NCBI RefSeq assembly: GCF_900176145.1
Contig: NZ_FWWY01000001.1
Coordinates: 2,070,487-2,134,486 of the forward strand
From: Sulfobacillus thermosulfidooxidans DSM 9293
GTDB lineage: Bacteria > Bacillota > Sulfobacillia > Sulfobacillales > Sulfobacillaceae
Direction of reading: 5' to 3'
DNA: 64,000 nucleotides
Shown in pieces: positions 50,081 through 51,975 of the stretch (positions within the stretch are counted from its first letter, which is position 1; every line of letters starts with the position of its first letter). Under the pieces are notes generated by a model. The model saw only the letters and a list, made by a program, of their open reading frames with translations. It was not told the origin of the DNA and searched no databases. Position numbers and translations under genes: made by a program.

Positions 50081-51874
50081 TTAACGGGTTAAGACATTGA
50101 CCGTATTGGTATTATCGTTGGTGAAATAAACGAGCAGTTCCCCGTTATTGTCTAAGGCTACATACACGCCAAAGAGTGCGGATCCTGCTCCGGTGACAGG
50201 GTTGACTGGTGTTTTATCGAGTAGTCGTGCCGAAACGAGTTGCCCGGTGCGGGGATTGATTTCAATGGCTCGGTTATCGCCTTGGTTCACGGCGATTAGG
50301 TTTCCATTTTCGGGATTAAACCCGAGTCCTGCAGGCTTATTTAAGGGCGGCCCTTGATAAATTTTCAGTCCTGAACCGAGATCCGTTTGCGCTGTGCTCA
50401 CGGGAGCCAATACGGAAATACTGTTGTCGGCGCCGTCGGCAATATACAGGGCATCGCCCATGGGAAGCCAAATCATGCCTTGAGGGCCAAATACGGTATT
50501 GATATTGGTCCCAACATGGGCAAAACCTGACCCAATTTGGAGGGTGACGGAATCCTCGTTGAAGTCAGGCGGGTGGAACTCGGTGAATCGGTCGATAGTA
50601 CCGGACAGGACGTTGGTGGAAAAGAATGCAACCGGGAGCCCATAAAATTCGCCAAAGTTAAATTGCATGCCCCACGGACCATCAAAAAGATCACGATGAA
50701 TATCTCCGCCTGAAAATAGGGTTCCATTGGGAGAAATGACCTGTACCAGGCCTTGACTGCCATCGGTGGCAAAGCCGTAGTCAGCAATCCACGTAGCGCC
50801 GAGATTGGAGGTCGAGATCGCAATGGGGGCCATGGCACCCGCAAAAAAACGTTCTGGACGGCCATTAACAATCCGTTCCAAGGTGCTTCCAAGCCCCATC
50901 ACGCCGTTGGCGTTGTTGATATTGGATACCAAGAGGTCGCCGTGTTTCAGTATCGTGTTGGTATCATCAAAGGTATTGGGGGCCAATAACACGCCATAAG
51001 GATTTTGATCACCATTGACGGGATCAATGGTCGATGAAATGACCTGAATATGGGAGAGACTTCCGATTCGTCCCCGGGGAAAAGCGTCAGCGGAATACCA
51101 AAATACCGGATTAGAACGTCCTAGCGCGTAAAAGGTTTGAGGGCCGCAAATGCCATCGGCGGTAATGCCAAATGCCTCTTGGAAGTGTTTAACGGCATGA
51201 CGGGTGACGGATCCAAAATAGCCATCGATGCGTCCAGAATAAAATCCAAGATTTTGCAAGATCACTTGCAGTCCGGCGGTGTCAAATCCGTTGATGCCTT
51301 CGTGTAATGTTCTGCCTCCGGTGATAGCCGTAATCCACAAGATATCAAACGTATCGGGTCCGACATTGCCATCAAACGCAATATCCCAGTGCCGATAGAC
51401 AATATTGTCTCCTTGAAACGCCAGCACCGCTTTGGAGGTCGGCGTATCAAAATCGCCTGTCGCGGCTTGGTTGAGAATGGTAGCATAGCGAAGACAATTG
51501 AGGCGATTTTGAAGAACGATGACGTCGCCTCCTGTGATCGGGGCTGCAAGACTGCGCGAGCCAAAGGCGGGGCCGCCATACGCACGATTGTCTTGACCCA
51601 TGACTCGGTAAGTTTGTGGTCCCACAATGCCGTCGACACAAATTCCAAAATAACTTTGTATATTCGCTGCTGCCTTTTGACTTTCGCGGTCAAAAACTCC
51701 TGTGATGGGAATTGGGGAACCCATGGGCCCATTGGGAGGGTTCATCAGCTCTAACAAGGTATTATAAAGGCGCTGAAACACTTTGACATCGGTTCCTGTC
51801 AAGAGGGGTCTTTTTAGCCGTAGTACACGAGAACCAAAGGGTACACGCGGCAACTGACCCGCAAAATTTCCCAT
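50081..51874 (-). CDS. Three peptidoglycan-binding domains fused to a beta-propeller
   Basis: The 597-residue protein has three PG_binding_1-type repeats in its first half (about 16-95, 105-180, 190-255; markers CVDGIVGPQTYRVMG, FDGNVGPDTFDILW, GRIDGYFGSVTRHAVKHFQ, ADGICGPQTFYALG). An NHL/TIGR03118-like beta-propeller region follows (about 275-595, with repeated NPENGNLIAVNQGDN- and ADGADNSISVLAP-type strands). No signal peptide or membrane helix is visible at the N-terminus, so its route to the cell wall is unclear. GAAGGAGG precedes the ATG. It is monocistronic and its function is unknown; it may be a wall-bound surface protein. Confidence 0.8.
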   Translation of the reverse strand: MGNFAGQLPRVPFGSRVLRLKRPLLTGTDVKVFQRLYNTLLELMNPPNGPMGSPIPITGVFDRESQKAAANIQSYFGICVDGIVGPQTYRVMGQDNRAYGGPAFGSRSLAAPITGGDVIVLQNRLNCLRYATILNQAATGDFDTPTSKAVLAFQGDNIVYRHWDIAFDGNVGPDTFDILWITAITGGRTLHEGINGFDTAGLQVILQNLGFYSGRIDGYFGSVTRHAVKHFQEAFGITADGICGPQTFYALGRSNPVFWYSADAFPRGRIGSLSHIQVISSTIDPVNGDQNPYGVLLAPNTFDDTNTILKHGDLLVSNINNANGVMGLGSTLERIVNGRPERFFAGAMAPIAISTSNLGATWIADYGFATDGSQGLVQVISPNGTLFSGGDIHRDLFDGPWGMQFNFGEFYGLPVAFFSTNVLSGTIDRFTEFHPPDFNEDSVTLQIGSGFAHVGTNINTVFGPQGMIWLPMGDALYIADGADNSISVLAPVSTAQTDLGSGLKIYQGPPLNKPAGLGFNPENGNLIAVNQGDNRAIEINPRTGQLVSARLLDKTPVNPVTGAGSALFGVYVALDNNGELLVYFTNDNTNTVNVLTR

Positions 51875-51975
51875 AAGCTATTCCTCCTTCGGCTTTTTTA
51901 GCCTTCGGTGGAATAATATGGTGAATGAGGGAAAATGTGATAAAATCATCCAGAAATCATGAACGAGTTGTCATC

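Follow-up and report, generated by a model that had tools for sequence, protein, structure and literature searches.

The gene at positions 50081..51874 (stop codon included) on the reverse strand of the 64,000-nucleotide stretch of Sulfobacillus thermosulfidooxidans DNA analysed in this study (the window) encodes a 597-aa protein in which three peptidoglycan-binding domains (PGBDs, PG_binding_1) are joined to a beta-propeller, and for which the upstream codons and the N-terminal hydropathy indicated no signal peptide. Comparison of this protein and its control region with those of its relatives suggests that it is quite probably a late, sigma-K-controlled mother-cell protein of the spore surface, anchored on peptidoglycan by its PGBDs and carrying the propeller as cargo.

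The Pfam scan confirmed the three repeats reported in the preliminary description, with PG_binding_1 (PF01471) matching three stretches of the protein (E 3.4e-37, 126.9 bits, cut-off 23); neither a LysM match at E<=1 nor a hydrolase domain was found in the same scan. The repeats make up an N-terminal module (residues 1-256; 51107..51874, reverse strand) that is common to many signal-less proteins of the class. The remaining 341 residues (257-597; 50084..51106, reverse strand) had no propeller match, Pfam NHL included, at E<=1 in Pfam or NCBIfam, and were modelled from a 27-row alignment with a mean pLDDT of 92.1 and a pTM of 0.91. The closest PDB structures among the matches listed were NHL, SMP-30/lactonase and phytase propellers and the Pizza6 design, and Z ranged from 27.0 to 28.7 across the best 50 matches listed, which included NHL, Pizza6 and lactonase chains. 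The domain is thus confidently modelled as an NHL/SMP-30-type beta-propeller, probably with six blades, a number taken from the structural alignments rather than counted. Pfam NHL did match a propeller relative (L052; 38.1 bits, cut-off 20). The propeller had earlier been labelled TIGR03118/NHL-like; the NHL-like part of that label agrees with the structure model, while TIGR03118 was dropped, as it had no NCBIfam match at E<=1 in the protein and none in six further proteins, namely five propeller-only relatives and a fused paralogue. The model of the full-length protein was poor (pLDDT 59.9) and does not define how the domains are packed.

A missed upstream start with a signal peptide was ruled out. 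The ATG at 51874 is preceded by the ribosome-binding site AAGGAGG (51889-51883, reverse strand), and the in-frame codons directly 5' of it are CTT and, before that, TAG. With this stop two codons upstream and an open frame of only 598 codons, the frame leaves no room for an extended product that would carry a signal peptide. Residues 1-26 have low hydropathy (best 12-residue mean 0.22), and the signal peptide expected of a Sec-exported wall protein was not found. Signal-peptide calls rested on inspection of N-termini by eye and on 12-residue hydropathy, rather than on a dedicated predictor. By eye, signal peptides were absent from 34 PGBD-only proteins and from nine of ten proteins with both parts, the tenth (L087) having its start missing. 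Within the first 26 residues, the 12-residue hydropathy of 44 PGBD proteins (with L077 and without L087) reached at most 1.16, whereas 16 of 19 propeller-only proteins scored 1.66 or higher, with signal-peptide-like starts, and the other three (L041, L044 and L046) scored low. The first 45 residues separated the two sets badly (0.33-2.23 versus 1.90-3.22), probably because a stretch of this length takes in the first PGBD helix. L056 was scored among the 16 from another start; its likely start gives a protein of 668 aa with a signal-peptide-like N-terminus and no sigma-K-type site upstream. The absence of an export signal that had been noted at the outset is thus conserved in the relatives.

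The sigma-K consensus in B. subtilis is AC-N16/17-CATAnnnTA. Upstream of the window gene, a sigma-K-type promoter-like site (51912..51938, reverse strand) consists of AC (51938-51937), 16 nt and CATATTATT (51920-51912), the last base of which departs from the strict consensus. A sigma-70-like 9/12 match overlaps this site, in a scan that gave 9 sites in 3 kb versus 5.6 in shuffled sequence. A short GGCT/AGCC inverted repeat (51891-51903) lies between the promoter site and the ribosome-binding site.

In order to compare the control regions of the family, 120 nt upstream of each gene were scanned (140 nt for dpaA-like genes), with relaxed patterns that were chosen after the family sites had been seen. 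Of the 43 signal-less PGBD genes, 31, the window gene among them, had the form AC-N16/17-CATAnnnT, and 12 did not. The 31 comprised 8 of 10 genes with both module and propeller (shuffle mean 0.13; 2 on the reverse strand) and 23 of the remaining 33 (shuffle mean 0.18; 0 on the reverse strand). The same form was found at none of 19 propeller-only genes (2 on the reverse strand) and at none of the 24 other window ORFs. When T[AG] was demanded at the end, the counts were 3 of 10 and 23 of 33, and with the strict AC-N16/17-CATAnnnTA they were 0 of 10 and 5 of 33. An earlier count with T[AG] at the end had given 26 of 44 module genes. Among 42 ORFs in eight loci around family genes, this TR form matched only three, all of them family genes. 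Four proteins (L037, L078, L079 and L077) had been set aside before the counts. Two of them have other domains and starts that resemble signal peptides, one is a fragment, and L077 is an ORF of 252 aa that consists of the module only and had no sigma-K-type site. L023, which has no upstream DNA, was excluded, and L087, which lacks its first residues, was scored as a miss. The loci counted are related and hence not independent events, and they include near-identical pairs such as L001/L083, L049/L050, L066/L067 and L186/L187.

Distant homologues from the phylum, which were fetched later, carry the most weight as evidence, since the strict form had not been fitted to Sulfobacillus sequences. After exclusion of L196, which has a signal-peptide-like start and another domain, 10 of 18 genes had the strict form (shuffle mean 0.125; 1 on the reverse strand) and 14 had the T[AG] form (shuffle mean 0.2), near-identical pairs being included; the sigma-E form was present in 1 of 18 (shuffle mean 0.53).

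B. subtilis dpaA is a sigma-K gene, and dpaA-like genes were used along with spoIVA genes of the same genomes for comparison (21 of 30 and 27 of 30 fetched loci, respectively). The unwidened sigma-K form was present in 1 of 21 dpaA-like genes, and a wider form chosen after reading their sequences, AC-N16/17-C[AG]TAnnnTR, in 15 of 21; the naming of these genes is weak, as in all 41 of 41 genomes they scored under the cut-off curated for the family. The sigma-K form was found at none of the 27 spoIVA genes. A sigma-E form (ATAY-N14/16-CATA), set after reading the spoIVA sequences, was present in 14 of those 27 and at none of the 43 PGBD genes, so that control of the family by sigma-E was rejected. 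According to PMC517825, sigma-K and sigma-E promoters of B. subtilis have their -10 element in common and differ in the -35 element (C versus T).

The genome itself has an intact sigK copy scoring above the cut-off. In one relative (G011), sigK is represented by half matches at two places on the same strand, separated by about 2.7 kb (C1:1558456-1558773 and 1561443-1561790), and half matches also occur in several other relatives, as if the gene were interrupted by a skin-like element. Of the 59 class genomes with the module, 58 have SpoIVA, versus 78 of the 92 without the module (Fisher p 0.005, kinship ignored), a weak test because most of the class (136 of 151) has SpoIVA; in the sole module-bearing genome without it (G107), the module lies at the end of a contig and is only partial. 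SpoIVA-positive relatives without the module exist (e.g. G006 and G010), indicating that the module is not a core spore gene.

Among 151 genomes drawn from the class, at least 59 contained the module (E<=1e-30, at most 17 candidates scored per genome), as did at least 20 of 398 drawn from the phylum (E<=1e-20, at most 6 candidates scored per genome), one of the latter (G193) having a signal-peptide protein of another kind. The propeller was found in 18 of the 151 and 2 of the 398. When the module and propeller searches were combined, both parts occurred in a single frame in 10 of the 151 class genomes (G000, G003, G004, G015, G017, G023, G026, G100, G120 and G145; the G100 frame meets the end of its contig and is partial). 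The analysis supports the earlier view that the pairing is unusual, and the pairing is conserved in relatives. No published description of such a triple-PGBD/propeller protein or family was found among the literature titles and beginnings of abstracts that were listed. The genome of the window gene also encodes a full-length paralogue (67% identical) and two propeller relatives without PGBDs (L051 and L052, 45-48% identical). Some propeller relatives (L041, L042, L043, L044 and L046) come from records labelled Acidobacteria bacterium, Chthonomonadaceae bacterium, bacterium and Dictyobacter.

The first 87 loci gave 67 unique ORFs, of which 10 had both parts, 38 only PGBDs and 19 only the propeller. 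Most of the 38 PGBD-only ORFs encode about 400 aa, with a MALFxxTFxPYxPFGSR-like start and a C-terminal domain of about 140 aa, and a few end shortly past the module. An Rv2525c glycoside-hydrolase-like domain is present in two triple-PGBD proteins without signal peptides, L062 (2082-3938) and L075 (3477-5465). Among the distant homologues, four with triple PGBDs (L188, L189, L190 and L199) are 634-660 aa long; in the two that were scanned with Pfam, L188 and L189, two LysM stretches were found, along with a further C-terminal part that had no match at E<=1.

The sigma-K-type sites suggest that the protein is synthesised by the mother cell that surrounds the forespore, a setting in which coat proteins have no need of Sec export. 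We infer the time and place of synthesis, the localisation on the spore, the binding to the cortex and any function of the propeller as follows. The protein would be synthesised late, under sigma-K, in the cytoplasm of the mother cell, with no signal peptide, and would then be recruited to the forespore surface. There its three PGBDs may anchor it on peptidoglycan, most likely at the cortex or the cortex-coat interface, and the propeller, as cargo, may have a structural role, bind a ligand or act as an enzyme. From preliminary data, PMC517825 states that the products of many newly found sigma-K genes are associated with the coat.

In other proteins, PGBDs attach to the peptidoglycan of the wall, and the preliminary description had proposed an adhesin or enzyme that is bound to the wall and leaves the cell by an unknown route. 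Such a vegetative wall protein, reaching the surface independently of a signal, would fit the sigma-70-like site that overlaps the promoter and the propeller relatives with signal-peptide-like N-termini in the same genome. The sigma-K-type sites that were found recur across the family, however, and signal peptides are absent from the PGBD family while most propeller-only relatives have one, which makes this reading improbable and argues against it as the main one. Mother-cell synthesis, as suggested by the control regions of the window gene and its relatives, would remove the need for an unknown export route. A mother-cell protein could also be freed at lysis and act outside on debris or released spores, for example in lysis or germination, in the manner of a lysin partner. 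The timing of sigma-K and the absent signal are consistent with this, as is the Rv2525c-like domain of L062 and L075, but no hydrolase domain was found in the window protein or by domain scan in two ordinary 400-aa members (L057 and L059), and we regard such a role as unlikely.

PGBD folds may have other ligands, so that the protein might stay in the cytoplasm and bind something other than peptidoglycan; this appears very improbable, given that L188 and L189 pair their PGBDs with LysM, another peptidoglycan-binding module. Endolysins have PGBDs and no signals, and a phage endolysin was considered and set aside, as the neighbouring genes in the ORF list, judged by eye, resemble housekeeping genes.

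The spore-surface role favoured here recasts what looked like an export puzzle as a hypothesis of spore assembly that can be tested. It also brings to light, in acidophilic spore formers that have received little study, a family in which a single anchor is combined with different cargos. On a broader proposal our judgement is evenly balanced: the triple-PGBD module may be an old and so far undescribed Firmicutes spore-surface anchor outside the LysM-based SafA/SpoVID system, sigma-K-controlled and not Sec-exported, that docks swappable cargo (the small C-terminal domain, the propeller, the Rv2525c-like hydrolase, or LysM with a further C-terminal part), and the Sulfobacillus form may have taken its propeller from a secreted family to the spore surface.

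Among the systems available for comparison, L051 and L052 of the same genome belong to the same propeller family as the window protein but differ in having a signal-peptide-like N-terminus, no PGBD and no sigma-K-type site. The PGBD part resembles that of the spore cortex-lytic enzyme SleB, matching TIGR02869 with 88 bits; this is below the equivalog cut-off of 236.5 bits, with the best stretch in the PGBD part only, and the protein differs from SleB in having neither a hydrolase domain nor a signal peptide. The LysM fold differs from the PGBD fold, and to our knowledge SafA and SpoVID have no propeller. The window protein, with three PGBDs in place of LysM and no N-terminal LysM, falls outside the SafA family proper. 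In its peptidoglycan-binding module and its lack of a secretion signal it resembles SafA and SpoVID, the LysM-containing coat morphogenetic proteins of B. subtilis, which are described as mother-cell products with no known secretion signal that end at the cortex or the cortex/coat interface (PMC6282716), the origin and site proposed here. The safA and spoVID genes are reported to be under sigma-E (PMC517825), in contrast to the sigma-K-type site of the window gene. YaaH/SleL is a coat protein with two LysM and a likely peptidoglycan hydrolase (PMC6282716). As in the window protein, its peptidoglycan-binding modules are N-terminal and joined to a C-terminal cargo domain, which in YaaH/SleL is the likely hydrolase. 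How SafA and SpoVID cross to the cortex region is called unclear by the authors of PMC6282716, and the protein described here bears on this question of the route by which signal-less peptidoglycan-binding coat proteins reach the cortex region.
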